64,000 nucleotides of DNA from Edaphobacter aggregans DSM 19364 (GTDB taxonomy: Bacteria > Acidobacteriota > Terriglobia > Terriglobales > Acidobacteriaceae): the NCBI RefSeq assembly GCF_000745965.1, contig NZ_KN050790.1, positions 21,084 to 85,083 on the forward strand, read 5' to 3'. Position 1 is the stretch's first letter. Each line of letters opens with the position of its first letter. Below, one piece after another: positions 12,233 through 50,168 of this stretch. Both the position numbers and the translations under genes were made by a program. The notes under the pieces are model-generated. The model was not told the DNA's origin. It searched no databases and saw only the letters and a program-made list of their open reading frames with translations.

Positions 12233-13255
12233 ATGCCTGACGATCTAAAGGGACTTAGTCGTGAAGATGTTTGCCGCTTGATTATGAAGACGCCTCTCTG
12301 GAATGGGGCGGAGTGGCATTGGTTCGGATTTCACTTCACGTTTCTCTTAGATCCTCGTGCCGAACATCCCTTCGCCAGAGCGATCATCGATGCCCTCGTT
12401 GTCTGCGACACGGCCATGCCTGGTTATGCTGAGGCCTTCATCGAAAGGTTGGCTTCTGTTCGTGGTAAGGAGAGATTTACTCCTCACTACGAACAACTTA
12501 TGCAGATCGTCGCGGAGCTACACGTAATAACACAGATGGTTCGCTTCGATTGGCCAGGAGGCGCGCACTTCATCATGGAGCCCACCCCGGAGGGAAGCAA
12601 GAAGAACCCCGAGATTACGATCCAACATCAAGGATTCACCTATGGCGTTGAGGTAAAGGCACCCTCGCTGCTGGCGCATATCAAGGCTCGCAACGAGAAT
12701 TCGACCCAATTACCTGGTCGTATGCCATCCGAGATGGTCGAGCAGGTGAAGAGAGAGGGTGAGGCGATGACGTTGCCCAGGGACAATCCGGTCAAGGACT
12801 TTTTGGTCAGCGCCGACGCCAAATTCGAGCATTTCAAAGTGGCGGATGCGAATTTCATCGGGGTTCTCGTAATCGTATGGGACGACTTTATCTATGAGCC
12901 GATTAGTTCGTTGATCTCTGAATCGGCAGGTCTCCTAACGCCGAATTCCTTTTTTAAGGATTCCGAAGGTGTTGCCAAAACTTTTCAGCACGTAGATGGG
13001 GTGTTTCTGATCAGGAAGCTGCACCAGTTCGCTCGAGAAGCGGGAGGTCAGCCCTTGATCGATGGCTGTTCCAACGTCATGGACTATGGTCAGGAGGGAG
13101 TATTTCCGTTCAAGGTTTTCATCCAGAATACCAAGGGCGTGATGGTTCCCGAGATACTGCAGCGTTGCCTTCAGGGATTGCCGCCGACGAGCGAAATGGG
13201 CGCTGAATACACCCCAAAGGATCTAGTGTGGTGGACGGGGACTATGAATGTCTGA
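12233..13255 (+). CDS. Uncharacterised protein with PD-(D/E)XK nuclease-like core
   Basis: A 340-residue soluble protein I do not recognise by name. The centre looks like a restriction-endonuclease fold: a helix with Glu95 (QIVAELHVIT), then NPEITIQHQG with Glu127, then YGVEVKAP with Glu140-Val-Lys142, giving the E...E-x-K spacing of PD-(D/E)XK enzymes. The region after it (PVKDFLVSADAKFEHF, LVIVWDDFIYEPISSLI) resembles parts found in other nuclease-like proteins that follow the core. Its stop overlaps the start of the next gene by eight bases, so the two are translationally coupled. Location in an accessory island next to a HEPN gene suggests a defence or mobile-element function. Nuclease activity is inferred only from the motif. 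Confidence 0.55.
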   Translation: MPDDLKGLSREDVCRLIMKTPLWNGAEWHWFGFHFTFLLDPRAEHPFARAIIDALVVCDTAMPGYAEAFIERLASVRGKERFTPHYEQLMQIVAELHVITQMVRFDWPGGAHFIMEPTPEGSKKNPEITIQHQGFTYGVEVKAPSLLAHIKARNENSTQLPGRMPSEMVEQVKREGEAMTLPRDNPVKDFLVSADAKFEHFKVADANFIGVLVIVWDDFIYEPISSLISESAGLLTPNSFFKDSEGVAKTFQHVDGVFLIRKLHQFAREAGGQPLIDGCSNVMDYGQEGVFPFKVFIQNTKGVMVPEILQRCLQGLPPTSEMGAEYTPKDLVWWTGTMNV

Positions 13256-14072
13256 CACCAGCGCTCTTTACTTCAGCGTACGAGGGCGCGAGTCTCTACT
13301 GAGCTCATTGGCAGCCGGATGCTGCGACGATCATCTCGTCCTTTATGAAGAATTGAACACCTATCATGACATCGGAATGCATGGGGAGCGGCTGATGCGA
13401 AGTGATCTGTTCCTGAGGGCCATTGATGACGCAGACGCTGTTCGCATCGCATTCGAGCTCGTCGACCTGCTAAGCGGAGTCGTGATGCTGTCATTGAGCG
13501 ACGCTCTGAGAGATGTTACGGTCACTCCCGAGAGCCTGTTTTCTAGCAATACTGCCCCGACAAAGCTTGAACTTCCTCTGCCTAACCGCGAGCCGGCACT
13601 CCGCCTTACCGGAGCGTTTCGAGATAAAAGCAATATTCCGATCCCGCACTACGTGGAACCGAAATTCGGGTTGTTCCGACGGGTATTCCCGGAGCAGGGC
13701 TCGATGAATGATGGCTCTTCACTCTGTAGGGTATCGCGATTGTTTCGTCTCGCAGCAATCGACCTAGGTATCTACATATTGCTCAAGCTCTTCGCTATGG
13801 AGATCAACTGGGTAACCCTCTACAAAATTCTAGAAACGCTGGAGACACTGATGAAAGGTGACGGATTCGTATCTCCGATATTGAAGCCGGAGAGAGATGC
13901 TCTCACAAATGCCGCGAACAACTTCAGTCTGACCAATCTCTCTGCGCGACATGGTTTCAAGCCCGTCGGTAAACCCAACAAGACCAAAGTCGCAACTCTT
14001 CAGGAAGGCCTTGTCACTCTGCAGAAGGCCACGAACGCCTACGCCACATTCAAGCTCATCGCCGCAAAATAG
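13248..14072 (+). CDS. Uncharacterised ARHG-motif protein, partner of nuclease-like gene
   Basis: A 274-residue protein beginning inside the end of the previous gene. The N-terminal half has no recognised domain. A hydrophobic stretch (AAIDLGIYILLKLFAMEI, about 169-186) could be a buried helix or one membrane segment. The C-terminal part reads NNFSLTNLSARHGFKPV (residues 224-240) followed by a helix. I recall a similar Asn-rich turn plus ARHG/SRHG at the C-terminus of several uncharacterised proteins in accessory regions. The conserved His suggests a functional site. The tight overlap implies a complex or dosage link with the nuclease-like protein. Confidence 0.5.
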   Translation: MSDTSALYFSVRGRESLLSSLAAGCCDDHLVLYEELNTYHDIGMHGERLMRSDLFLRAIDDADAVRIAFELVDLLSGVVMLSLSDALRDVTVTPESLFSSNTAPTKLELPLPNREPALRLTGAFRDKSNIPIPHYVEPKFGLFRRVFPEQGSMNDGSSLCRVSRLFRLAAIDLGIYILLKLFAMEINWVTLYKILETLETLMKGDGFVSPILKPERDALTNAANNFSLTNLSARHGFKPVGKPNKTKVATLQEGLVTLQKATNAYATFKLIAAK

Positions 14073-14197: not shown

Positions 14198-16084
14198 TCA
14201 TATCGCCAACACATACCGCGCGAGCGGGCCGACTCGCGCCAGCGTCTCTGGCCGCATGCGAGCAGGTAAATGGATCCCAGAGCGAACTTCGCGCCTGACG
14301 AAATAGCCTTGTATCGAGCGTCGAGCCTCATTAGTTGCGTTCGCCGTATGGCCGTGCCACACCGACCCATTGAAGATGATCAACGAACCTGCTCGACCAC
14401 AGGCCAACACCTGACCGTCATAATCGGCTTGGAGGTCACGCACGACCTCCTCCGGCACTTCCGGCCACATATGCGAAGTCGGCACAAAACGGGTAGCGCC
14501 GTTGTCAGGTCGAAAGTCATCGATCATCAGAATGAAGCCGACCATCGGCAAATCTTCCGAGTCGCGCTTGATGTCGACATGGAGGTCTTGTGCAGCAGAG
14601 CCCTGTCGCAGAGTTCTGCCAAGAGTTGTGCTGAGCTTAAACGGCGCTCCGATGACGTGACAACATGCCTCAAGAAGGGGAGGGTAAGTATAAAGGTCAT
14701 CAAACTCCGCGCCACGATTGACGAAGTCGTACATGCGCGTCGTGGTGCGGGCCTCCTTCCCGTCCGCTTCGTTCCCAGACTGCATGGCCGCATCGTACGC
14801 GGCGGCAAACTGCGGCAGGCGTTCGGTCGACACCGGACCAGAAATCACAACGAAGCCGATATCCCGCAACTCCTTGGCTGCGAGTGCAGGCAATTGGCCG
14901 CCTGCACTGATCGTGCCGAACCATTCATCCATCTGATCTCCTTGTGTAACTTCATATCGACAGTCCTGCACAGGCTTCTGGACAAAAAGAGGCGAAATCG
15001 GGTCATCGGCGGTTTGAAAGTTACTGAGGCCTACCCCAACCAACCGGAAGAGCTGCTTTGGTCCCAACTCAACCCGTTCGCGCAGCGCGAGTGCGATATC
15101 TGTAAGTTCGTCGCAGGATGAGGGGGGAGCCGGAAGCGTGAGGCTTCGCGTGAGGCTATTGAACTCTTTCGTCTTCAGCTTCAGAACCACCGTCTTCGCT
15201 GCCCGCGCATTGCCGTGCGAGGATTTCCAAACTTTCTCAGCCAGACGACGAATTTGGGACTCAGTGTCCACCAGCGGAATGTCTTCGGGAAAGGCGTCTT
15301 CGGCAGAAATGGACTTGCTGACTCGGTTCGGCACGACGGGATTGTGGTCAATACCGCGGGCGAGTTGATATAGGCGCAGGCCATAGCTTCCGAAGTGATC
15401 TTCAAGCGTGGACAATTCAAAGGCATAAAGATCGCCGACGGTTGCGATTCCAACTGCCTTCATGCGGCTCTCTGTGACCTGCCCCACTCCAGGGATACGA
15501 CCCACCGGCAGCGGGAGAAGAAAGCTCTGTACTTCGTGCGGCTGAATGACGAACAAGCCATTGGGCTTTTTCCAATCGGATGCGATCTTCGCCAGAAATT
15601 TGTTGGGTGCCACGCCTGCGGAAGCCGTAAGGTTCAACTCTTCGCATATCTGCTGACGAATCATCTTCGCGACGCGCGTCGCGGTCGGAAGCTGCATCTT
15701 GTTCTCGGTCACGTCGAGATACGCTTCATCGAGAGACAACGGCTCGATGAGGTCCGTATGCCGCTGAAAAATTGCGCGCACAGCAGACGAGGCGGCTTTG
15801 TAACGCACGAAATCAGGAGGAATGAAGATCGCTTCAGGGCAAAGTCGCTCGGCGCGCACCGCCGGCATCGCGGATCGGACGCCGTAACGTCGGGCCTCAT
15901 ATGAGGCGGCGCAGACCACCGAACGGTTGCCGCGCCACGCGACCACGACCGGCTTACCGCGAAGCGCTGGATTGTCTCGTTGTTCTACCGAGGCGTAGAA
16001 CGCATCCATATCCACATGAACGATCTTGTGAAGGGGAGCAGAGGTGTCATCGGCGGCTACGTATTGGGCGTCGAGTGCTGTCAT
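14198..16084 (-). CDS. DNA polymerase IV fused to PhyH-type 2OG-Fe(II) dioxygenase
   Basis: One open frame of 628 residues. Residues about 20-370 are a full Y-family polymerase of DinB type: HVDMDAFYASVE (Asp25), SLDEAYLDVT (Asp119-Glu120), the helix-hairpin-helix IPGVGQVTESRMKAVG, and a little-finger domain. Residues 385-628 look like a phytanoyl-CoA dioxygenase-like domain: the iron-binding HVD (His502, Asp504), the distal WHGHTAN (His577), and an Arg pair (588-589) where 2-oxoglutarate would bind. An internal ATG at 14932 has AAGGAG just before it, so the second domain may also be translated alone. A start further inside the 20-residue N-terminal tail is possible. DinB does error-prone lesion bypass. 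Such a fusion is unfamiliar to me; it may be real or a stop-loss joining two genes. Confidence 0.85.
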   Translation of the reverse strand: MTALDAQYVAADDTSAPLHKIVHVDMDAFYASVEQRDNPALRGKPVVVAWRGNRSVVCAASYEARRYGVRSAMPAVRAERLCPEAIFIPPDFVRYKAASSAVRAIFQRHTDLIEPLSLDEAYLDVTENKMQLPTATRVAKMIRQQICEELNLTASAGVAPNKFLAKIASDWKKPNGLFVIQPHEVQSFLLPLPVGRIPGVGQVTESRMKAVGIATVGDLYAFELSTLEDHFGSYGLRLYQLARGIDHNPVVPNRVSKSISAEDAFPEDIPLVDTESQIRRLAEKVWKSSHGNARAAKTVVLKLKTKEFNSLTRSLTLPAPPSSCDELTDIALALRERVELGPKQLFRLVGVGLSNFQTADDPISPLFVQKPVQDCRYEVTQGDQMDEWFGTISAGGQLPALAAKELRDIGFVVISGPVSTERLPQFAAAYDAAMQSGNEADGKEARTTTRMYDFVNRGAEFDDLYTYPPLLEACCHVIGAPFKLSTTLGRTLRQGSAAQDLHVDIKRDSEDLPMVGFILMIDDFRPDNGATRFVPTSHMWPEVPEEVVRDLQADYDGQVLACGRAGSLIIFNGSVWHGHTANATNEARRSIQGYFVRREVRSGIHLPARMRPETLARVGPLARYVLAI

Positions 16085-16104: not shown

Positions 16105-16263
16105 CTACACCTTGCAGTCTTCACACGTCGCGCAATGCTCTGTGAAAGCGTCCCACTCCGGGATGCCGTCGAATGCGGATGTACTGAGGTCGACAAAGTC
16201 CTGCGCCTGCAGAAAGGCGTAATCGTTGGGACGTGCCTCTTCAAATCGGTGCAGCAAATCCAT
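16105..16263 (-). CDS. Small Cys-rich hypothetical protein upstream of dinB fusion
   Basis: A 52-residue product if begun at ATG 16263; the frame is open to 16365. It reads MDLLHRFEEARPNDYAFLQA, later FVDLSTSAFDGIPEWDAF, and ends THC-type HCATCEDCKV. The final Cys-x2-Cys-x2-Cys cluster with His could bind a metal. It lies 20 bases upstream of the polymerase fusion on the same strand, so the two may share a transcript. I do not recognise the family. Confidence 0.45.
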   Translation of the reverse strand: MDLLHRFEEARPNDYAFLQAQDFVDLSTSAFDGIPEWDAFTEHCATCEDCKV

Positions 16264-16365
16264 CCCAGCAGGACAAGCAGGAAGGTCATTGCCTGTCCAT
16301 ACCGGACAGGTTGATTTTTGAGGTTGTCGAGTCAGCGAAATCACCTCGCATCCATTCAACCACAT

Positions 16366-16558
16366 TCGCCTCTTATTCGCCTAGCTGTTTCATCCAGACC
16401 TGACGCTTCCCGGTAGTCTCGGAGGAGAGCTTCCCGGGGCCTTCGTGAGAGTGTTCCCCGACAATTGGGCAACAGGCTGTTGCCCGATTGCCGGGAACAT
16501 AATGAAAGAGTTTGGGCTGATCCCACACGGATCAGCCCGGTGGCCCGCTGATTGTAAA
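16366..16558. other. End region of an integrative element, noncoding
   Basis: Part of the roughly 290-base gap between the small gene and the tRNA-Ala fragment. It includes short GC-rich inverted segments near 16470-16550 (for example ACGGATCAGCCC) but no gene. Apparent frames on the minus strand are artefacts of the repeats and tRNA piece that follow. Confidence 0.4.
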
Positions 16559-17805: not shown

Positions 17806-19881
17806 TCAATTCGACAACTTCGCTGCCTGGCGCTTGAAGTCCTCTGCCTTCGCCATGTTTCCCTGCCTCTGATAGACATCAGCCAGCGCAAGGTACAGTT
17901 CGGGGCTGGGTGGCTGGAACTGCATCTCGTACTCGAGAATCTTCGCCGCCTGCGGAAAGTCCCCGACCTGTGCGTTCGCCTGCGACAGCTGGATCGCCGT
18001 CTGCTGGCTCACCTCTGTGCGTCATCTCCACCTTGCCTGAGAGAGCCGCGATGTCCTTTGACCGTCCGCTCTGCGCCAGCAGGTCCACAAGCCGCGTCAG
18101 GGCCGGGACGTATCGTGGATCGTCGGCGACCGAGCGTTCGAACCAGGTGATCGCCCCGTCGGTCGAGCCTTGCATCTCTGCGCTCAGGCCGCGTTTGTAG
18201 TCGTCGATCGCACGGCCACGGCGGGCGTCGGCGGTCGCCTCATACGCGGTCCAAACGTCCGTTGTCTCCGTGTCGGCCGCGATGCGGAATGTGAGATTCG
18301 CGTACGCCTTCTGCTGCGTCGTCTCGTCGATCGCGGTGATCACAACGCGGTAGTTCCCCATTGCGAGACCCTCGGTGGATAAGGTGCGTCCCGTGAGCAG
18401 CGTACCCGAGGCGTCAAAGTTCGCGGCGTCGATCTCCTCGTCCTCTTGGTGGGTCTGCTGGCCTGTCTGCATCGTCCCGTACACATAGTGGACCTTGACC
18501 TTGCGGCCTTCGCGGGTCGCCGGGTCGAATGGCTTGGTCCATAGCTGGAAGAGCAGGCGCAACGGCTCGCCGGGATGCAGCGACGTCTGCTGCACTCCCT
18601 TGGGGACGAAGCGCAACCCGGAGACGCTGAAGGGCAGCCCGCCGTCGGGATCGCGCACCGGAGGCTGCGGCGAGAAGATCATGATCCTGCTCAGGGCAAA
18701 TGCGGTCTGCGCCGGATCGGGAACCGTAATTTCTGTACGCTGCCGCACTGCCAGATGGTTCAGATCGTTGGTGAGCGTTGCGACAAGCTGGTATTCGCCG
18801 GGCGCCAGCGGAACCCTGCTCTCCGCGCCGAAGCGCTTGCTGCGCGCCGCAACCGTCTGGCTTTCATTCACCACGCCGGCGAGCCGCTCATTCTGCTCGT
18901 AGACGGGCTTGCCGTCCTTCGTCAGCACGCTGGTCTGCAGCGTCAGCGAGTAGCCCATTCGCTTGTCCGGCAGCGCACCAACGATCCCCTGCTCCGGCCG
19001 TCCGTACGCGAACAGATAATGGACCGTCATCCGTCCGCTGCTGTCACGAAAGACAACCGGCTGAAGGGTCGCCGTGTTGGCTCCAAGAAAGATGCTCGTC
19101 GTTACTCGCTCGTTGGCGCGGCGGTGGTGCCAGCATCTGCCTGGTCAGCGGATTGTCGGGCAGACCCTTGATGGTGCTGAATGTCGGATTGCATGCTCGG
19201 CGTGTAGTCGTTCAGGTCGACCGGCTCGGTGGGAATCAGCGAGATCGCCGTTCGGGCCACCTCGTTTCCCAGAGAGCGCTTGAGGACATCGAGGTTGTTC
19301 TTCTGGACGTTCTTGCCTTGAAGCCCGGTCACCAGCCGCGACGGGCCGTCCTGATAGGGCGAATAAAGCGTGTAGTCCTCGCCGATGCTGCGCTTGTAGA
19401 AGACGATGTAGAAGTGCGACGGCAGCGCCGGATTCGGCGCCTGATAGAACCATATCTGCAGCGGCCGCACGTTGCGCGACTCCGGATAGTTCGCCTTCTG
19501 TTTCGGCTCGCCCAGCACGATGTAGATGTGGCCACGGTCGGTGCGCCAGCCATCCTGCGCGCCGATGTTGCCGTAGTTCTGGTTAGCATAGGTCAGGCGG
19601 CGGTAGTGCTCTTCCCTGTACTCGTTGATGTCGGAGCCGGGAGTCGGATTGCGCGCCTCCCAGAAGAGCTTGATGAAGTTCTCCCGCTCGGCATCGCTCG
19701 TCAGAGCGAGAAACTGCTTTCGCTCCTCGCTCTCGATGATGTAGTTGACCTCTTCGTTGACCCAGTGCCGGTAGCGCGGCGCAAGGTTCTTCGTGGGATC
19801 GACCGCGTGCAGCTGCAGAGTCGCAAAGACCAGCAGCAGGAGTGACAGCAGCAGACGGGGCCGTAACGAGAGCAGAGGCAA
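17806..19881 (-). pseudogene. GWxTD-domain protein, copy 1, frameshifted
   Basis: Nearly the same protein as the intact 692-residue gene at 43879-45957. The start matches (MPLLSLRPRLLL signal, GWRTDRGHIYIVLGEP), but after MQSDI the frame breaks. Compared with copy 2, bases are lost near 19190 and one is gained near 19110. A further one-base insertion near 18018 throws the end into another frame; the last 68 residues (SQQTAIQLSQANAQVGDF) are read separately. The product would stop near residue 259. It sits behind copy 1 of the TonB receptor, mirroring the intact pair. Confidence 0.85.
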
Positions 19882-19905
19882 GGAAGATGCTCCTCCAAAA
19901 GAAAC

Positions 19906-19932
19906 GGGAGAGGGTGCTCGCCACCCTCCCCC
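19906..19932 (-). promoter_or_regulatory. Hairpin between TonB receptor and GWxTD gene (copy 1)
   Basis: GGGTG and CACCC, flanked by G- and C-rich bases, form a hairpin in the 72-base gap between the two genes. The same hairpin is kept in copy 2. It has no T run, so it could weaken read-through or shield the upstream mRNA. Confidence 0.45.
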
Positions 19933-19953
19933 GGAAGTTTAGTCACTGTCAGT

Positions 19954-22900
19954 TCAGAACTCAAACCGCACAGAGCCGCGCGCATAGAACGGCGTCTGGA
20001 ATGCGGTCGGACGGTTGTAATCCACGTTGAGCGGAGGCGGCACTCCAACATCGGTACCTGTCGTCTGCGTGTACTGAATACGCCCCAACTGGAACTGGCT
20101 GTTGGTCACGTTGAACATATCGATCGCCAGCTTCAGCTTATAGCGCTCAAACCTCGAGCCCAGAGGCACCGGATAGTCCCCATGCAAGTCAAGTTGCATC
20201 GTGGACGGTGTGCGGCCCGCAGCACCACGACCTCCGATTGGAACTTCGCCCTGATTGAGATAGATCGGGTGATCGCCCAGCAGACTTAGCGGGACGCCCG
20301 ACTGACCGCGCCATCCGGCACCGAGAGTAAGGCCGCGCGCGCCATGAATGAACGGCGTGTCAGACCCGACGTTGTAGCTCAAAAACAGGTTGCCGACGGT
20401 GCGACGGTCCGTGCTGAGCATGCCGTTGGCGAACTGATCGCCAAGCAGACCCAACTGGCCGGGAGTAAAGTCGAACAACGAGCTGATTCCGGGGTCCGAC
20501 TGTCCGTTGTCGTTGCGATACGCGCCCTCATAGTTGCCGTATAGCGTGCCCCAGCGGAAGTTCACCTTAGCAAGCCAGTGATTGCCGAACCGCTTGTCCA
20601 ACTCGAACTCGGCAGCCTGGTAGCGGCGCACCGGCTTCACGAAGCCATCCGGAATGCCGTCACCACCGTTAGGTCCCGTGCCCGGTCCGTCCATGGTTTC
20701 CAGGTTGAGGAAGCAGGAGCCTCCAACCGGTTGATTCCTTCCATTAATGAATGGGCCACCCACGGCGAAGAAAGTATCGTTATCAGCCGTGCAGCCGGAG
20801 ACCGGAGGCCTGTAGGTACTATCCGTTGGGCTGCCGCTCGGGTTCGCTGCGAGGAATTGCGCCTGCGTATAGGTCACGGCCTGCTCATTCACCGCGATAT
20901 CGGTGCCTGGAGAAGGATTCGCAATTCCGCCCACGAAATTCCCGCCGATCGTGGAGCCTTCCGGCGACTGCGAGCCGATGTCCTCGATAACCCGGCCAAG
21001 ACGCCGGTCGGTGTAGCGCGCCTTGAAGACAAGCGACGGCGTTAGCTCACGCTCAAAGCCGATCACGTATTCATCCTCGTACTGCCCTTTGGTCCCTGGA
21101 AGAACAATCGAGCTCGGAAACGCATAATTCGGCGCGCCAAAATTGGACACGACTCCACTGGCACTAGTCGAGCGCGGTAAGCCGTTAAGCGCGTGCGCTG
21201 CATCGGGGATAATCGTGTAAGACCCATCGGCGTTGATGACAGGTGCGAAGATATAGCCGCGGCCTTGCTTTTCACCGCCAAGCGTGCGAATCGCGGCATC
21301 CAGGGGCATTGCCCAGTAGTTGCGGCCAAAGTTAAAGAACAGCTTGCTCCTGTGGTCCCCCAGCGGATCGATGTTGATGCCGATGCGTGGCGACCAACTA
21401 CCGGTGAACGTGTATTTCAGGTCATTATTTCCGGCAATTTGCTGCTGCTCCCAGCGAACTCCGGCATTGATTGTAATAAAACGATTCATCTGGTAGACGT
21501 CGTTTCCGTAGGCAGTGTGATAACGTCCACTGGAATTCACGTCACGTCCTTGGTATATACCGCGATAGATGGTAGCGTAAACCTGTTGACCATTATTGTT
21601 AAGAGGACAGAGTTGGCAGGTCCGGTCCGTCTGAGTCAGCGCTGCGTTGGTGTTTGTCGCTTGGATCCGGAACTGCGCATTCGTCAACTGTCCGATCGGG
21701 TTGCCAGCGCTGGCAGGTACGGGAATGGGGTCGCCATTGGCGTTCGTACCCGGAATCGGGAACAGGGCTCCGGACTTCAACTGCAAATCAAGAAAGTTAG
21801 TGTGATCATAGGCATATCCCGTTGAGAAGGTGTGCTGCCCCAAAAAACCAAATGTCTTCGAAGTATTGACCGCAATACTGTAGGTATTGTTCTTCGATGG
21901 CTCATACGGACCCAATCCAGAGATAAACGCTGCAGTGGGATTCGCCAGTGCGTTACCGCTGAGATCGTTGATGCCATAGTCGGCCGTCGCCGGATATTCA
22001 TCGAAATGGTTGTAGTTATAAGCATAGGACGCGTCGACAAGCCAGCTCGGCGTAATCGCATGCGTAAGACGGCCCACCGCGTTTCGCGAGCCAAACTGCC
22101 AAGAGCTTGCCGTCGTGCGTGGAAAGAAGGAGGAGATACCATTCGAATCCGTGGCAAACGGTTGCGCGTTGTGCTTCGAAGGATCGGCGAATGCGGACGC
22201 CTCAAAGGTCGTCGAAGAGCGGATCTTCCACGTGATCTTGCCGGCCCAGCTCAATGTGGTGGTGCTGTAGTCAATAGCGCCAAGGGCAACGCTGGGCGAC
22301 GGAGCATTCGGGTTCGCCTGCATCTTGTCCTGCCGCAGCGCCGGATTGAACGCGCCGAAGAAGAACAGCTTGTCCTTGATAAGGTAGCCGCCAAGCTCGA
22401 CGACCCCGTCATACTGCGGGCTGGAGAGCGTCGAAGGCGGCGTGGCCTGCTGGTAGCCAAACTGATAGTACTGGTACCGGCTCGCATACCACGACCCCGG
22501 CCCAAAGTAGGCAGCCACAGCACCGTGATACTGATTGCCGCCGGATTTGGTCACGATCTGCACAATGCCGCCGGTCGCCTTGCCGAACTGCGGCTCAAAC
22601 GCCGTCGTCTTGACGTTGACCTCCTTGATAAAGGCCAGGTTGATTCCAGTTCCGAGCGCGCCATGGAAGCGGTTGAAAGTGCCGATGCTTCCAAAGGCCT
22701 GGTCCGTAATCGTCACGCCGTCCACGACATACAGGTTCTCAAGACCAGATGCTCCGCCGATCGACGGGTTCGCCGCCCCCGGCCCGGTCTGTCCCGGCGA
22801 TCCAGCGACCTGTCCGCTGGCAACGCCCGGCGCCGCGTAGAAGATCGCTGAGACGTTACGCGGCATGGGAACGCTGTTGTAAAACGTGTCCGTCAGATTC

Positions 22901-23313
22901 GAGGTGATCGCGGTGCTCTGGGTATCGATCGCAACCGCCGCCGCCGTGACCTCGACCGTCTGCCCAACATTGCCCACCTGCATCGTCAGGTTCAATGTCG
23001 ACGACACGTTGACCACGACCTCATTGTGCTTCGACTGAAGCATCATGAAGCCATCCTTCGTCGCGGTGACGTCGTAGTAACCCGGTACCAGGTTGGTTGC
23101 GGTAAATCGGCCATTCGAGTCGGTTGTGAGCACACGGTCACCCTGCGGTCCATGCAGAGTCACGGTGGTGCCCGGAATCACCGCCCCAGTCGTATCGCTC
23201 ACGATTCCATTCAGACCACCGGAGATCGCCCCCTGCTGTTGAGCGAAGGCACAAAACGTCGTCAACAGAAGCACCATAACAACATGCGGTAGGCGTTGCA
23301 GAAGTGGTTTCAT
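19954..23313 (-). CDS. TonB-dependent receptor with carboxypeptidase-regulatory domain, copy 1
   Basis: An intact 1119-residue outer-membrane protein. Order: signal peptide ending CAFAQQQ, a carboxypeptidase-regulatory/CNA-B-like domain (about 30-115; GIVSDTTGAVIPGTTVTLHG), a plug (LENLYVVDGVTITDQA, then ATGGIVQIVTKSGGNQYHG), and a long beta barrel ending in YARGSVRFEF. This Oar-like architecture is greatly expanded in Acidobacteriota and is thought to import oligosaccharides or other large substrates. The paralogue at 46031-49399 is very similar along its whole length. A LacI-like palindrome lies upstream. Unlike its GWxTD partner, this copy shows no frame break. Confidence 0.92.
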   Translation of the reverse strand: MKPLLQRLPHVVMVLLLTTFCAFAQQQGAISGGLNGIVSDTTGAVIPGTTVTLHGPQGDRVLTTDSNGRFTATNLVPGYYDVTATKDGFMMLQSKHNEVVVNVSSTLNLTMQVGNVGQTVEVTAAAVAIDTQSTAITSNLTDTFYNSVPMPRNVSAIFYAAPGVASGQVAGSPGQTGPGAANPSIGGASGLENLYVVDGVTITDQAFGSIGTFNRFHGALGTGINLAFIKEVNVKTTAFEPQFGKATGGIVQIVTKSGGNQYHGAVAAYFGPGSWYASRYQYYQFGYQQATPPSTLSSPQYDGVVELGGYLIKDKLFFFGAFNPALRQDKMQANPNAPSPSVALGAIDYSTTTLSWAGKITWKIRSSTTFEASAFADPSKHNAQPFATDSNGISSFFPRTTASSWQFGSRNAVGRLTHAITPSWLVDASYAYNYNHFDEYPATADYGINDLSGNALANPTAAFISGLGPYEPSKNNTYSIAVNTSKTFGFLGQHTFSTGYAYDHTNFLDLQLKSGALFPIPGTNANGDPIPVPASAGNPIGQLTNAQFRIQATNTNAALTQTDRTCQLCPLNNNGQQVYATIYRGIYQGRDVNSSGRYHTAYGNDVYQMNRFITINAGVRWEQQQIAGNNDLKYTFTGSWSPRIGINIDPLGDHRSKLFFNFGRNYWAMPLDAAIRTLGGEKQGRGYIFAPVINADGSYTIIPDAAHALNGLPRSTSASGVVSNFGAPNYAFPSSIVLPGTKGQYEDEYVIGFERELTPSLVFKARYTDRRLGRVIEDIGSQSPEGSTIGGNFVGGIANPSPGTDIAVNEQAVTYTQAQFLAANPSGSPTDSTYRPPVSGCTADNDTFFAVGGPFINGRNQPVGGSCFLNLETMDGPGTGPNGGDGIPDGFVKPVRRYQAAEFELDKRFGNHWLAKVNFRWGTLYGNYEGAYRNDNGQSDPGISSLFDFTPGQLGLLGDQFANGMLSTDRRTVGNLFLSYNVGSDTPFIHGARGLTLGAGWRGQSGVPLSLLGDHPIYLNQGEVPIGGRGAAGRTPSTMQLDLHGDYPVPLGSRFERYKLKLAIDMFNVTNSQFQLGRIQYTQTTGTDVGVPPPLNVDYNRPTAFQTPFYARGSVRFEF

Positions 23314-23850
23314 TCTCTCCCCCCGTAAAAGTGATCCAGCGAGTTGCTGACCTCACGTTGCCGGGCGAGCGTCGTACACACCGAGAAGGAGGTCGAGACG
23401 GGCCTGAATGATGACTCAATAACGATACGCAATTCACGCACCAAAACTGCTCGCTCTACAACATTTGTCCTATCTGAATGAAGACAAAACCGCATACTCT
23501 GAATCCCCGAACAGAATCCCTGGATTGGAAATCCGACGCCATATGAAAATTGGGATGAAACACAAAATGAGGATGAATTGCAGTAAACGTTTACTAAACA
23601 CCTGCATTTAGGCCACTATCCGCCTGAAAAGCGTTCCCGGTTCGCCGTAATTCTGCCACTCGTCCCAACCTCAGGCGCGTTCGTCCCACAGCGGTCTGCT
23701 AAAAACTGTAGGTGCGGAGATTCAGGGTCCCAAAAAGCCGGCGCTGGATGCTACTTTTACCTATCGCAGTAAACTGACCATCATCTCTGTATTGAGGAGC
23801 CATGGGATCAGCCGCAGGACCAGTTGCATCACACCTTGGAAACGCAAGGC
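23314..23850 (-). other. Leader and promoter region of TonB receptor copy 1
   Basis: About 540 bases with no gene. Large parts align by eye with the region upstream of copy 2 (shared CGCCATATGAAAATTGGGAT, GCTAAAAA(C/A)TGTAG and a GATTCAGGGTC block), so the duplication covers the promoter too. The homology seems to fade near 23850. Confidence 0.6.
23582..23595. promoter_or_regulatory. LacI-family-like operator palindrome
   Basis: AGTAAACGTTTACT is a perfect 14-bp palindrome with the central CG pair and AAACGTTT core typical of LacI/GalR-family operators. It lies about 270 bases upstream of the TonB receptor start. The matching place upstream of copy 2 (GCCGTAAAAGG) has lost the symmetry. No LacI-type regulator gene is in the window. 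Confidence 0.5.
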
Positions 23851-43878: not shown

Positions 43879-45957
43879 CTAGTTCGACAGCTTCGCTGCC
43901 TGGCGCTTGAAGTCCTCGGCCTTGGCGACGTTCCCCTGGCGCTGATAGACGTCAGCCAGCGCAAGGTACAGCTCTGAACTCGGCGGCTGGAATTGCATCT
44001 CGTACTCGAGAATCTTCGCGGCCTTTGGATAGTCCCCTACCTGCGCGTTCGCCTGCGACAGCTGGATCGCCGTCTGCTGACTGACTTCGTGCGTCATCTC
44101 CACCTTGCCTGAGAGCGCGGCGATCTCCCTGGAGCGGCCGCTCTGCGCCAGAAGGTCCACCAGCCGCGTGAGCGCGGGAACGTACTGCGGGTCATCGGCG
44201 ATCGCGCGCTCGAACCAGGCAATCGCTCCGTCGCTCGATCCCTGTGAGGCTGCACTCAGTCCGCGCTTGTAGTCGTCGATCGCATTGCCGCGGCGGCTGT
44301 CGCCGGTGGCCGCGTAGGCTGTCCAGAGCTCTGTCGTCTCCGCGTCGGTGGCGATGCGGAAGTTCAGGTTGGCGTAGGCCTTCTGTTGCGTGGTCTCGTC
44401 AGTGGCCGTGATAACCACACGATAGTTCCCAACGCCGAGGCCCTCGGTCGACAGCGTCTTCCCCGTCAGGAGAGTGCCTGACGCATCGAAGTCCGCCGCA
44501 TCGATCTCCTCGTCCTGCTGGTATGTCTTCTGGCCGGTCTGCATGGTTCCGTAGACGTAGTGGACTTTGACTTTGTGTCCCTGGCGTGTCGCCGGGTCAG
44601 AGGGCTTGCTCCATATCTGGAAGACCAGGCGCAGCGGCTCGCCCGGATGCAGGGATGTCTGCGTTACGCCTCTGGGAGCGAAGCGCAGTCCGGAGACGCT
44701 GAAGGGCAGCAAGCCGCCGGGATCGTGCAGCGGAGGCTGCGGCGAGAAGACCAGCACCTTGCTTAGTCCCCATGTCACCTGCGCCGGGTCAGGTACCGTG
44801 ATCTCATAGCGCTGACGAACCGCAAGGTGGTTGAGATCGTTGGTCAGGGTCGCGACGAGGTGATACTCGCCCGGGGCCACCGGAACGCGACTCTCCGCGC
44901 CAAAGCGCTTGCTTCGCGCCGCGGCTGCCTGGCTTTCATTCACTGCCCCGGTCAGCGTCTCGTTCTGGACATAGACCGGCTTGTCATCCTTGGTCAGGAC
45001 CGAGGTCTGCAGTGTCAGGGAGTAGCCGGTTCGCTTATCCGGCAGCAGGCCGACGATTCCCTGCTCGGGCCGGCCGTAGGAGAACAGATAGTGCACCGTC
45101 ATCCGGCCGGCGCTGTCGCGAAACACGATCGGCTGCAGCACGGCCGTGTTTGCGCCCAGAAAGATGCTCGTCGTCACGCGCTCATTCGAGCGGCGCGCAG
45201 CCAGCATCTCCCTCGTCAGGGGATTGTCGGGCAGACCCTTGATGGTGCTGAGCAGCACATCCGACTGCATGCTCGGGCTGTAGTCGCTCAGGTCGACCGG
45301 CTCGGTGGGAATCAGCGAGATCGCTGTTCGAGCCACCTCGTTTCCCAGAGAGCGCTTGAGGATATCGAGGTTATTCTTCTGGACGTTCTTGCCCTCAAGC
45401 CCGGTCACCAGCCGCGACGGGCCGTCCTGATAGGGCGAATAAAGCGTGTAGTCCTCGCCGATGCTGCGCTTGTAGAACACGATGTAGAAGTGCGTGGGCA
45501 GCGCCGGATTCGGCGCCTGATAGAACCATATCTGCAGCGGCCGGACGTTGCGCGACTCCGGATAGTTTGCCTTCTGCTTCGGCTCGCCCAGCACGATGTA
45601 GATGTGACCGCGGTCGGTGCGCCAGCCATCCTGTGCGCCGATGTTGCCGTAGTTCTGGTTGGCATAGGTCAGGCGGCGGTAGTGCTCTTCCTTGTAATCG
45701 TTGATGTCGGATCCGGGAGTCTGATTGCGCGCCTCCCAGAAGAGCTTGATGAAGTTCTCCCGCTCCGCATCGCTCGTCAGAGTGAGAAATTGCTTTCGCT
45801 CCTCGCTCTCGATGATGTAGTTGACCTCTTCGTTGACCCAGTGCCGGTAGCGCGGCGCAAGGTTCTTCGTCGGATCGACCGCGTGCAGCGGCAAAGTCGC
45901 AGACAGCAGCAGAAGGAACGAGAGCAGCAGACGGGGCCGTAACGAGAGCAGAGGCAA
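43879..45957 (-). CDS. GWxTD-domain protein with C-terminal TPR, copy 2
   Basis: An intact 692-residue exported protein. Signal peptide at 1-26 (LLLSFLLLLSATLPLHA). The GWxTD domain spans about 35-190 with the eponymous GWRTD at 111-115 and GHIYIVLGEP. Middle beta-sandwich-like regions carry long VxVHYVYGT-type strands. The C-terminus (580-690) is helical with TPR-like units (DDPQYVPALTRLVDLLAQSG, SSELYLALADVYQRQG). GWxTD proteins have no agreed function; in Acidobacteriota they often follow TonB receptors as here, 73 bases downstream. A periplasmic partner role is inferred. Copy 1 is broken. Confidence 0.9.
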   Translation of the reverse strand: MPLLSLRPRLLLSFLLLLSATLPLHAVDPTKNLAPRYRHWVNEEVNYIIESEERKQFLTLTSDAERENFIKLFWEARNQTPGSDINDYKEEHYRRLTYANQNYGNIGAQDGWRTDRGHIYIVLGEPKQKANYPESRNVRPLQIWFYQAPNPALPTHFYIVFYKRSIGEDYTLYSPYQDGPSRLVTGLEGKNVQKNNLDILKRSLGNEVARTAISLIPTEPVDLSDYSPSMQSDVLLSTIKGLPDNPLTREMLAARRSNERVTTSIFLGANTAVLQPIVFRDSAGRMTVHYLFSYGRPEQGIVGLLPDKRTGYSLTLQTSVLTKDDKPVYVQNETLTGAVNESQAAAARSKRFGAESRVPVAPGEYHLVATLTNDLNHLAVRQRYEITVPDPAQVTWGLSKVLVFSPQPPLHDPGGLLPFSVSGLRFAPRGVTQTSLHPGEPLRLVFQIWSKPSDPATRQGHKVKVHYVYGTMQTGQKTYQQDEEIDAADFDASGTLLTGKTLSTEGLGVGNYRVVITATDETTQQKAYANLNFRIATDAETTELWTAYAATGDSRRGNAIDDYKRGLSAASQGSSDGAIAWFERAIADDPQYVPALTRLVDLLAQSGRSREIAALSGKVEMTHEVSQQTAIQLSQANAQVGDYPKAAKILEYEMQFQPPSSELYLALADVYQRQGNVAKAEDFKRQAAKLSN

Positions 45958-45981
45958 GGGAGATGCTCCTCCAAAAGAAAC

Positions 45982-46007
45982 GGGAGAGGGTGCTCGCCAC
46001 CCTCCCC
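45982..46007 (-). promoter_or_regulatory. Hairpin between TonB receptor and GWxTD gene (copy 2)
   Basis: GGGTG and CACCC, in GC-rich flanks, form a hairpin in the 73-base gap. The sequence is kept almost unchanged from copy 1, unlike many coding positions, which hints at function, possibly graded expression of the second gene. Confidence 0.45.
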
Positions 46008-46030
46008 CGGAAGTTTAAGTCACTGTCAGT

Positions 46031-49000
46031 TCAGAACTCAAACCGCACCGAACCGCGCGCATAGAACGGCGTCTGGAACGAAGTCGGCCGGTTGTAGTCC
46101 GCGTTGAGAGGTGGAGGCGCACCGACAGCCGACGACGACGTCTGCGTGTACTGAACCCGACCCAACTGGAATTGGCTGTTCGTCACGTTGAACATGTCGA
46201 TCGCCAGCTTCAGGCGGTACTTCTCCCAGCGCGACCCGAGCGGTACGTTGTAGTCACCGTGCAGATCCAGTTGCATGGTGGACGGTGTGCGGCCCGCAGC
46301 ACCACGCCCTCCGACTGGAATCTCACCCTGATTGAGGTAGATCGGGTGATCGCCGAGGATGCTTAGCGGGACACCTGACTGACCGCGCCATCCGGCACCG
46401 AGAGTCAGGCCGCGCGCTCCGTGTATGAGCGGACTGTCAGAGCCGACGTTGTAGCTCAGGAACAGGTTACCGACCGTACGACGATCCGTGCTGAGCATGC
46501 CGGGGGCGAACTGGTCACCGAGCAGGTTGAGCTTGCCGGAACTGAAATCGAACAGAGAGCTGATTCCGGGATCAGACTGCCCGTTGTCGTTGCGGTACGC
46601 GCCCTCGAAGTTGCCAAAGAGCGTGCCCCAGCGGAAGTTGATCTTGGCCAGCCAATGGTTGCTGAACCGCTTGTCCAGTTCGAACTCGGCCGCCTGGTAA
46701 CGGCGAACCGGGTTCACGAAACCATCAGGGATGCCATCGCCAGGAGTGGCATCCATCGTAGTCGGATTCAGGAAGCAGGCTCCGCCTACTGGCTGATTGA
46801 AACTATTGATGAAAGGTCCGCCTACGGAAAAGAAGGTGTCATTATCTGGCGTGCAACCCGGTACAACCGGAACGTACTGGGCGGCTGTCGGGCTGCCGCT
46901 TGGATTCTTCGCCAGGAACTGCGCCTGCGTGTAGGGCAGTTCCTGCTCATTCACCGCAATGTCGGTACCCTTATTCGGGTTGGCAATACCGCCAGCATTG
47001 TTCGGAGTAATCATCGATCCTTCCGGCGAATAAGCCGTAATGTCCTCGATAATCCTGGGAAGACGACGGTCGGTGTAGCGTGCCTTGAAGACGATCGATG
47101 GAGTGAGCTCGCGCTCAAAGCCAATCACATACTCATCCTCATACTCTTGCTTCGTTCCAGGGAGAATGCCCACGCCGGTCGAAGAAGAAAAGTTCGGACC
47201 ACCGAATCTTTGGAGGCCCCCACTCGCGGTTGTCGATCGCGGCAGACCATTCAGATTGTGCGCGGCATCGGGAATAATAGTATAGGATCCATCGGCGTTG
47301 ATGATCGGGGCAAAAACATAGCTCGTGTCGTCCTGCTCGTTGCCAAGCTGACGAATCGCCGCATCCAGAGGCATCCCCCAGTAGTTGCGGCCAAAGTTGA
47401 AGAACAGCTTGCTCCTGTGGTCGCCCATCGGGTCGATATTGATGCCAACGCGCGGCGACCAGCTCCCCGTGAAGGCGTAGTCCAGCAAAGTGCCGCCGAC
47501 CCGCTGCTCCTCCCACCGGACGCCAGCGTTGATGGTGATGAAACGGTTCATCTGGTAGACGTCGTTTCCATATACGGTGTGGTAGCGGCCGGTCGCAAGC
47601 ACAAACGGTTCCGAATAGGTGCCTCGATCCATGGAGGCATAAACCTGCTGACCGAACCTATTGATGGGACATTGTGTGCAAGTACGGTCCGTCTGCGTGA
47701 GTGCTGAATTTATGTTCGTTGCCTGAACCCTGAACGTCGCATTTGTCAATGCGCCAACCGCACGGGCCGGAATTTGAGGATAGAGCGAGGTTAGCGTCTG
47801 GCCAGCCGCATTTTGATTCGGGATCGGGAACGACGGCCCAGACCGTGTATTAAAAAGGTCGACGAAGTTCGTATGATCGTACGCATATCCTACCGAGACC
47901 GTGTGCTGACCATAGAATCCGAACGTCTTGGACGTATTGACCGCGATGCTGTAAGTGTAATTCTTCGAAGGCTCGTAACCGCCGAGCCCGGATCTAATGG
48001 CCGCGACCGGGTTCGCGAGCGAGTTGCCACTCGCATCTGTGATGCTGTAGTCGTTCGATGCGGGCTTCTCATCGAAGTGGTTGTAGTTGTACGACCAGGA
48101 GGCATCGACCAGCCACGTGGGCGTAATCGAGGTCGTTACACGGGCAAGCGAGTTCCACGAGCCAAACTGCCAGGAACTCGCCGTCGTCTGAGGAAAGAAG
48201 GAGGAGAGAGCACTATTCCCCACCGCAAGCGGTTGCGCATTGTGCTTCGAAGGATCACCGAAGCTCGCCAGCTCAAAGGTAGTCGACGAGCGGAACTTAT
48301 AGGTCAGCTTCCCCGCCCAACTCAGCGTCGTCGTGCTGTAGTCGAGCGCGCCAAGAGCGACGCTCGGCGCTGGAGCATTCGGATGGGCCTGCAGCTTGTC
48401 CTGCCGCAGCGAAGGGTTGAACGCGCCGAAGAAGAACAGCTTGTCCTTTAATCCAGGAATATAACCTCCCAACTCCGCCACCGCGTCGTATTGCGGGCTG
48501 GAGAGGAACGAAGGCGGAGTCAGCTGCTGATAGCCGAACTGGTAGTACTGGTAACGGCTCGCATACCACGATCCCGGCCCGAAGTAAGCCGCCACAGCGC
48601 CGTGATACTGATTGCCGCCGGACTTCGTGACGATCTGCACGATTCCGCCGGTCGCCTTGCCATACTGCGGCTCGAAGGCGGTCGTCTTGACGTCGACCTC
48701 CTTGACAAAGGCCAGGTTGATTCCCGATCCCAGCGAGCCATGAAAACGGTTGTAGGTGCCGATGCTTCCGAACGCCTGATCCGTGATAGTCACGCCGTCC
48801 ACGACGTAAAGATTCTCAAGCCCCGACGAGCCGCCAATCGACGGATTCGCCGCACCTGGCCCATTCTGGTAAGCCGTTCCCGCAACCTGCCCCGCAGCAA
48901 CGCCGGGCGCCGCGTAGAAGATCGCAGAGACGTTTCGCGGCATCGGAACGCTGTTGTAGAACGTGTCCGTCAGGTTCGAGGTGATCGCGGTGCTCTGGGT

Positions 49001-49399
49001 GTCGATCGACACCGCCGCCGCCGTCACCTCGACCGTCTGCCCGACATTGCCGACCTGCATCGTCAGGTTCAATGTCGACGATGCGTTCACCACGACCTCA
49101 TTGTGCTTCGACTGAAGCGTCATGAAGCCTTCTTTTGTGACGGTGATGTCGTAGTAGCCCGGGACCAGGTTGGTCGCGGCATATCGGCCATTCGAGTCGG
49201 TTGTGAGCGTACGGTCACCCTGCGGTCCATGCAGAGTCACGGTGGTATCGGGGATCACCGCCCCAGTCGTATCGCTCACGATTCCATTCAGACCGCCAGT
49301 GATCGACCCCTGCTGTTGAGCGAAGGCACAAAACGTCCCTAGCAGAAGCATAAGAACAACATGCGGTAGGCGTTGCAGAAGTTGTTTCATTCTCTTCAC
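46031..49399 (-). CDS. TonB-dependent receptor with carboxypeptidase-regulatory domain, copy 2
   Basis: An intact 1122-residue outer-membrane receptor. ATG at 49399 and a second ATG three codons on are both possible. Same order as copy 1: signal peptide, carboxypeptidase-regulatory domain (GIVSDTTGAVIPDTTVTLHG), plug (LENLYVVDGVTITDQAF), barrel ending FYARGSVRFEF. The N-terminal 300 residues and C-terminal 250 are nearly identical to copy 1; the central barrel loops diverge most (around 400-600), the parts expected to face the outside and meet substrate. Confidence 0.93.
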   Translation of the reverse strand: MKRMKQLLQRLPHVVLMLLLGTFCAFAQQQGSITGGLNGIVSDTTGAVIPDTTVTLHGPQGDRTLTTDSNGRYAATNLVPGYYDITVTKEGFMTLQSKHNEVVVNASSTLNLTMQVGNVGQTVEVTAAAVSIDTQSTAITSNLTDTFYNSVPMPRNVSAIFYAAPGVAAGQVAGTAYQNGPGAANPSIGGSSGLENLYVVDGVTITDQAFGSIGTYNRFHGSLGSGINLAFVKEVDVKTTAFEPQYGKATGGIVQIVTKSGGNQYHGAVAAYFGPGSWYASRYQYYQFGYQQLTPPSFLSSPQYDAVAELGGYIPGLKDKLFFFGAFNPSLRQDKLQAHPNAPAPSVALGALDYSTTTLSWAGKLTYKFRSSTTFELASFGDPSKHNAQPLAVGNSALSSFFPQTTASSWQFGSWNSLARVTTSITPTWLVDASWSYNYNHFDEKPASNDYSITDASGNSLANPVAAIRSGLGGYEPSKNYTYSIAVNTSKTFGFYGQHTVSVGYAYDHTNFVDLFNTRSGPSFPIPNQNAAGQTLTSLYPQIPARAVGALTNATFRVQATNINSALTQTDRTCTQCPINRFGQQVYASMDRGTYSEPFVLATGRYHTVYGNDVYQMNRFITINAGVRWEEQRVGGTLLDYAFTGSWSPRVGINIDPMGDHRSKLFFNFGRNYWGMPLDAAIRQLGNEQDDTSYVFAPIINADGSYTIIPDAAHNLNGLPRSTTASGGLQRFGGPNFSSSTGVGILPGTKQEYEDEYVIGFERELTPSIVFKARYTDRRLPRIIEDITAYSPEGSMITPNNAGGIANPNKGTDIAVNEQELPYTQAQFLAKNPSGSPTAAQYVPVVPGCTPDNDTFFSVGGPFINSFNQPVGGACFLNPTTMDATPGDGIPDGFVNPVRRYQAAEFELDKRFSNHWLAKINFRWGTLFGNFEGAYRNDNGQSDPGISSLFDFSSGKLNLLGDQFAPGMLSTDRRTVGNLFLSYNVGSDSPLIHGARGLTLGAGWRGQSGVPLSILGDHPIYLNQGEIPVGGRGAAGRTPSTMQLDLHGDYNVPLGSRWEKYRLKLAIDMFNVTNSQFQLGRVQYTQTSSSAVGAPPPLNADYNRPTSFQTPFYARGSVRFEF

Positions 49400-50168
49400 C
49401 CCGTAGTAGTGGCTGAGCGGAAAATCCTGACCTCAATACTGTCGGGGTGATCGTTCGTTCCACCGGCAGGGAGGTACAGGTGGGCCTGAATAGCAACTCA
49501 CTTAGGCAATACGCAATTCACACGCCAAAATTTCGGGAACTACACTGTTTGTGCTATCTGTATGAGTACAAAACCAAATGCTGCGAGTTTCGAAAGACGA
49601 GCAGCGGAATGAAATCTTAACGCCATATGAAAATTGGGATGAACCGCATAATACGAGGATGATTTGCCGTAAAAGGCTCTCCATACTCACCTCTAGGGCG
49701 ATTTGTGGCAAGGAAGAGCGTCGATAGTGATGCTTTGAAGCAGTTCGTCCCTGTCAGAACTCCATTCGTCCCAAAAACGATTTGCTAAAAATTGTAGAGT
49801 GCAGATTCAGGGTCACGGACACGCCGTGCCAGAGGCTACCCTCACCTATCGCTATCTTGTCATCTCTCCAAATATGAAATAAAAGAACTGCCGCGAATTG
49901 GCGCGGATGAGGAGCCAGGCATCAGGACCGGTTGAAATGTCACCCCGGCGCAGGGAATGCCAGGCATGCCACATCCAGAAACCCCGCAGCATGCTTCAGG
50001 TTTCCAAGACAACGAGTACTTCGACCACGCCCCCGGCTAACGCTCCTCGCGAAGGACCCTGGCGCATCTACGGCATTTGCCTTAGCGATACTATCCTCAA
50101 GAAGGTCTACTCTGCGAGCGCCGCGCGAGAGCTCGGAATCAATCTCTAGTACGAGGCACACCCGAACC
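49400..50168. other. Leader of TonB receptor copy 2 and upstream region of CBM9-like gene
   Basis: About 770 bases. The left 550 bases align with the leader of copy 1 (CGCCATATGAAAATTGGGAT, GCTAAAAATTGTAGAG). The right part up to 50168 holds the upstream region of the next plus-strand gene. An upstream frame continuous with that gene from 49932 looks non-native (no signal). Confidence 0.5.

Follow-up and report, generated by a model that had tools for sequence, protein, structure and literature searches.

Neighbouring dinB and phyH genes are probably read as one frame through a one-base difference in Edaphobacter aggregans

A 628-codon frame joins a DNA polymerase IV gene (dinB) to a PhyH-type dioxygenase gene (phyH) in the window, the whole 64,000-nucleotide stretch of Edaphobacter aggregans DSM 19364 DNA analysed here. 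Sequence comparison makes it very probable that these are two separately evolved neighbours, read as one frame owing to a one-base difference where dinB ends. As judged by homology between genomes, the conserved unit is instead formed by an 86-aa gene and dinB, with a direct repeat in front (Table 1), and phyH is a lineage-specific neighbour of dinB.

Table 1 Features of the locus and exact repeat sites in the same genome
Feature	Position	Strand	Basis
Joined frame	14198..16084	minus	628 codons without a stop
dinB (DNA polymerase IV), residues 1-374	14963..16084	minus	Pfam, NCBIfam, end of DNA homology with G021, purifying selection against C30
Junction, residues 375-384	14933..14962	minus	one base shorter than C30 copy
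AAGGAG, probable ribosome-binding site of phyH	14938..14943	minus	identical in C30 copy
phyH, 244 codons, PhyH-type 2OG/Fe(II) dioxygenase, H502-x-D504, H577, R588-R589	14198..14932	minus	Pfam, alignment, profile
86-aa gene, no family assigned by Pfam/NCBIfam	16105..16365	minus	ends 20 bases before dinB
Direct repeat GGCGAA-N5-GGCGAA, candidate SOS operator	16365..16381	minus	conservation and genome counts
Exact repeat sites before dinB and imuA-imuB units, own genome (G000), 5 of 9	C4:20157-20173, C27:47261-47277, C30:19438-19454, C88:16573-16589, window 16365-16381	minus (window)	

Open reading frame and Pfam analysis bore out the first-pass annotation's description of an uninterrupted frame with a full DinB followed by an intact PhyH. 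In the 628-residue protein, Pfam places IMS at residues 24-170, IMS_HHH_1 at 197-246, IMS_C at 256-359 and PhyH at 408-589. The whole protein matches PhyH above the curated cut-off (E 7.8e-18) and scores 443.6 bits with NCBIfam NF002677 (DNA polymerase IV), whose cut-off is 256; both the DinB and the PhyH matches are far beyond chance. A position check and a PhyH alignment recovered the catalytic residues claimed for both domains: D25, D119-E120, W576-H577 and R588-R589 were all located, HVD 502-504 corresponds to columns 118-120 of alignment A1, and H118, D120, H193 and R204-R205 are identical in all four PhyH sequences. The first half has the Y-family catalytic, thumb and little-finger domains and the Asp and Asp-Glu residues of a DinB, and the second has the PF05721 match with the HxD...H and Arg expected for 2OG, which would make it a PhyH-type dioxygenase. 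Residue 385 is encoded by an internal ATG (14932-14930), with AAGGAG at 14943-14938, five bases upstream. DinB homology ends at codon 374, only ten codons short of the PhyH start, so the lack of a stop in the junction is unremarkable.

The same assembly contains a second copy of the locus on contig C30, identical to the window in 1225 of 1384 aligned columns (89%). There, dinB terminates with EPVQDQLI and its own TGA, with one extra base relative to the window just before the TGA. Having one base fewer just upstream, the window keeps the counterpart of this TGA (14954-14952) out of frame, and its frame continues into phyH. From GATATGAAG through AAGGAGATCAGATGGAT the two copies are identical, and the same AAGGAG-ATG precedes phyH in both. 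This fits the earlier suggestion of two genes that fused and perhaps still give a separate second product. The annotation had named a consistent two-gene arrangement of homologues, with a stop near 14940, as evidence against its reading, and this is largely what we found: the C30 stop aligns with window 14954-14952, and in the rest of the DNA examined dinB and phyH are not neighbours.

Between the two copies, dinB shows purifying selection (dN 0.039, dS 0.458): over 370 codons, the first, second and third positions differ 20, 15 and 92 times. Deletions of one and ten bases break the C30 phyH, which is no longer recognisable beyond about residues 461-473 in the fused numbering. With one copy broken, the codon-position comparison for phyH is uninformative (9/148 differences at positions 1 and 2 versus 9/74 at position 3, p 0.13); third-position differences are fewer in phyH (9/74) than in dinB (92/370, p 0.015), which is unexplained. 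Since phyH follows dinB in both copies, which differ by 11%, the pairing is not brand new.

The other genomes examined yielded neither the joined frame nor the gene pair. We read DinB loci at which a match with E<=1e-40 reached residue 330; with the window gene excluded and duplicates counted once, these amounted to 28 places, among them one frame-broken copy (C27), and form a fetched subset of a larger DinB hit list. In all 28, at most some 50 residues separate the match end from the stop, and none has DinB and PhyH in one frame, so the proposed search for the same domain order elsewhere found no conserved fusion family in this set. Relatives with long open frames carry their extra length upstream of dinB, not downstream. 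Among plasmid records, none of the best 5,000 matches to the fused protein covers 80% of it in one place. The adjacency that the annotation proposed to check held only within the assembly itself: phyH adjoins dinB in one of 23 distinct DinB places, the C30 copy, and in neither the other 22 nor the surroundings of six PhyH relatives (L001 and L065-L069). DNA homology with three close relatives (G021, G030 and G032) begins at about 16381-16387, spans the 86-aa gene and dinB and then ends, at 14963, 14969 and 14982. The window DinB tail contains PLF, as do the tails of 15 of the 28 relatives (our own count), and this is probably the clamp-binding tail. The assembly itself has at least six DinB-like places at >70% identity (C6, C24, C27, C30, C193 and C210); the copies on C27 and C210 have frame changes and that on C193 has a stop inside the match. 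So many DinB-like places in one assembly may reflect mixed strains.

The PhyH half has its own, differently placed relatives. PhyH matches at E<=0.001 occur in 42 of 396 genomes of the phylum, mostly at <=35% identity; those at >=50% are L065 (59%), L066 (54%), L001 (53%), L067 (50%) and the broken L068. No DinB match (tblastn, E<=0.001) was found in the 7.5-12.7 kb read around each of these five and L069 (33%). Full-length PhyH relatives begin at the methionine equivalent to residue 385, and we saw no strong AAGGAG upstream of them. A phage-integrase-type gene lies near L066. Within the genus, a PhyH match occurs in 6 of 62 genomes; the strongest outside the own genome is a 42% fragment with which a G018 contig ends, and the 5 kb read there contain no dinB match. 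A profile search placed PrhA (E 6.9e-17) and AusE (E ~1e-16) nearest among solved chains, ahead of other dioxygenases, in a list of 44 sequences at E<=0.01; the nearest are small-molecule dioxygenases, and none of the 44 listed bears a DNA-repair name. Searches for phyH alone gave no support for a phage or viral origin: a phage collection contained no match, and none of 39 pattern stretches in viral contigs was confirmed. Matches of phyH in 27 plasmid records reached 28.5% identity at best among those listed.

We propose that the 86-aa gene and dinB form the conserved unit behind the candidate SOS operator. In this lineage phyH, with its own ribosome-binding site, would have arrived just downstream before the two assembly copies diverged. 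Because the window dinB has its stop out of frame, a ribosome starting at 16084 would make a 628-aa DinB-PhyH protein, and the AAGGAG-ATG at 14932 would still give a free 244-aa PhyH. If the repeat is an SOS operator, PhyH would be made together with dinB after damage, either fused or from its own start. We infer that the genes are co-transcribed under SOS control and give two products (628 and 244 aa), and the window state is probably derived relative to that of C30.

Two readings of the one-base difference compete within the two-gene explanation, and we lean slightly towards a real, recent stop loss over an assembly indel. Should the base be missing from the assembly only, dinB would stop in the cell and phyH would be a separate gene downstream, a special case of two genes that is a serious possibility though one we would not bet on. 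The C30 copy, which has both the base and the stop, favours such an error, as do the frame changes in the C27 and C210 dinB copies and those 2-4 kb from the joined frame, where a duplicated gene (~17.9-19.9 kb) has three relative to its intact copy (43.9-46.0 kb). These changes, however, sit among duplicates, in which genuine decay is to be expected, and the rest of the window has many unbroken long genes; the frame changes near the joined frame may come from either decay or error. The assembly comprises 8.18 Mb in 345 contigs, with contamination given as 7.21. The broken and shortened C30 phyH, the other broken dinB copies of the assembly and the adjoining degraded duplicate would suit a decaying locus, in which selection still acts on dinB, phyH is being lost as a passenger and the joined frame is an early lesion. 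The window phyH has neither an internal stop nor a lost motif residue, and we hold this account somewhat unlikely.

Far less credible is an evolved, working DinB-PhyH enzyme whose dioxygenase would have damaged bases or nucleotides as its substrates at the lesion. Catalytic residues kept in both halves, a candidate SOS operator in front and phyH following dinB in both assembly copies speak for it. Against the two-gene reading stand an unbroken 244-codon phyH with its catalytic residues and a stop-free junction, as in a kept fusion; the pairing in both copies, the few third-position differences in phyH and the PhyH relatives' lack of a strong AAGGAG also count against it, and fusions may exist among the wider DinB hits. 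Against the enzyme, the fused state was seen once, PhyH relatives have no dinB match in the DNA read around them, the PhyH half has no AlkB-type Pfam match, the solved chains matched are PrhA, AusE and other dioxygenases, and the C30 copy retains dinB with phyH lost. We likewise give scant credence to a DNA-damage-induced bifunctional protein that tethers a PhyH-type dioxygenase to Pol IV beyond its clamp-binding tail, plus a free form from the internal start. The joined frame is poor evidence for a new repair enzyme. Under the favoured two-gene reading, it illustrates how a one-base difference at a gene boundary may mimic one, with a sister copy and relatives favouring the simpler account; if real, the frame would capture a two-domain protein soon after its formation, with the second gene's own start still in place.

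The direct repeat in front of the unit is perhaps of more lasting use than the joined frame. GGCGAA-N5-GGCGAA is exact in four of five aligned copies and has one mismatch in the fifth (G032). Across the own genome, GGCGAANNNNRGGCGAA has nine exact sites versus one for the reversed control. Five of the nine lie directly before Y-family units, namely the window dinB unit, the C30 dinB unit, the C27 dinB copy and two imuA-imuB pairs; the remaining four are on C2, C40, C49 and C128. Both of these RecA-like/Y-family gene pairs were named imuA-imuB from NCBIfam matches below the curated cut-offs and Pfam matches mostly above them, and one is followed by a PHP/error-prone-polymerase gene. When two mismatches were allowed, the window showed no excess (10 found versus 10.2 expected). 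In 30 relatives, by our own sum, there are 51 sites versus 21 control sites; the repeat is absent from 10 of 31 genomes, and by coordinates it lies 0.2-1.2 kb before Y-family matches in three relatives (G001, G003 and G012). We take it to be a candidate LexA/SOS box for this acidobacterium-like group, and a limited literature search found no description of it.

The 86-aa gene, which had no match in Pfam or NCBIfam, lies immediately upstream of dinB at six further places by tblastn (C30, G030, G021 and G032, and partially in L030 and L018). Its protein ends in a CxxCxxC-like motif (CATCEDCKV).

Convergent to the joined frame are two overlapping plus-strand genes of 340 and 274 aa (12233-14072) with no Pfam match. 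PADLOC matched neither these two genes nor the fused protein to a defence system, and no insertion at a tRNA gene was found in the window or nine loci. On the other side, 17810-23587 repeats 43883-49673 at 80% identity and holds two genes, which we take to be a GWxTD-type gene and a TonB-receptor-like gene of 1119-1122 aa; the first gene of the 17810-23587 copy has three frame changes relative to its intact counterpart.

The repair link that the annotation found attractive is unsupported: the PhyH half has no AlkB-type Pfam match at E<=0.001, PhyH relatives have no dinB match in the DNA read around them and the nearest solved chains are small-molecule dioxygenases. AlkB-type DNA dealkylases, which use the same cofactor chemistry, are the annotation's comparison for the PhyH half. 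No AlkB-type family matched at E<=0.001 in Pfam or NCBIfam. Our literature search found no paper combining all terms of the DinB-PhyH pairing. The C-terminal extensions described for Y-family polymerases in the parts consulted of one study are DUF4113 or DUF3553 (PMC6511836), and its main text has no occurrence of 'dioxygenase'; those polymerases also run beyond the polymerase core, but into these domains rather than a dioxygenase. With PhyH-type dioxygenases (PF05721; nearest PrhA/AusE) the window protein shares the PhyH domain, here joined to a polymerase frame. With DNA polymerase IV/DinB (NF002677; PF00817, PF11799) it shares the full catalytic and little-finger regions and the PLF tail, but its frame continues past that tail.
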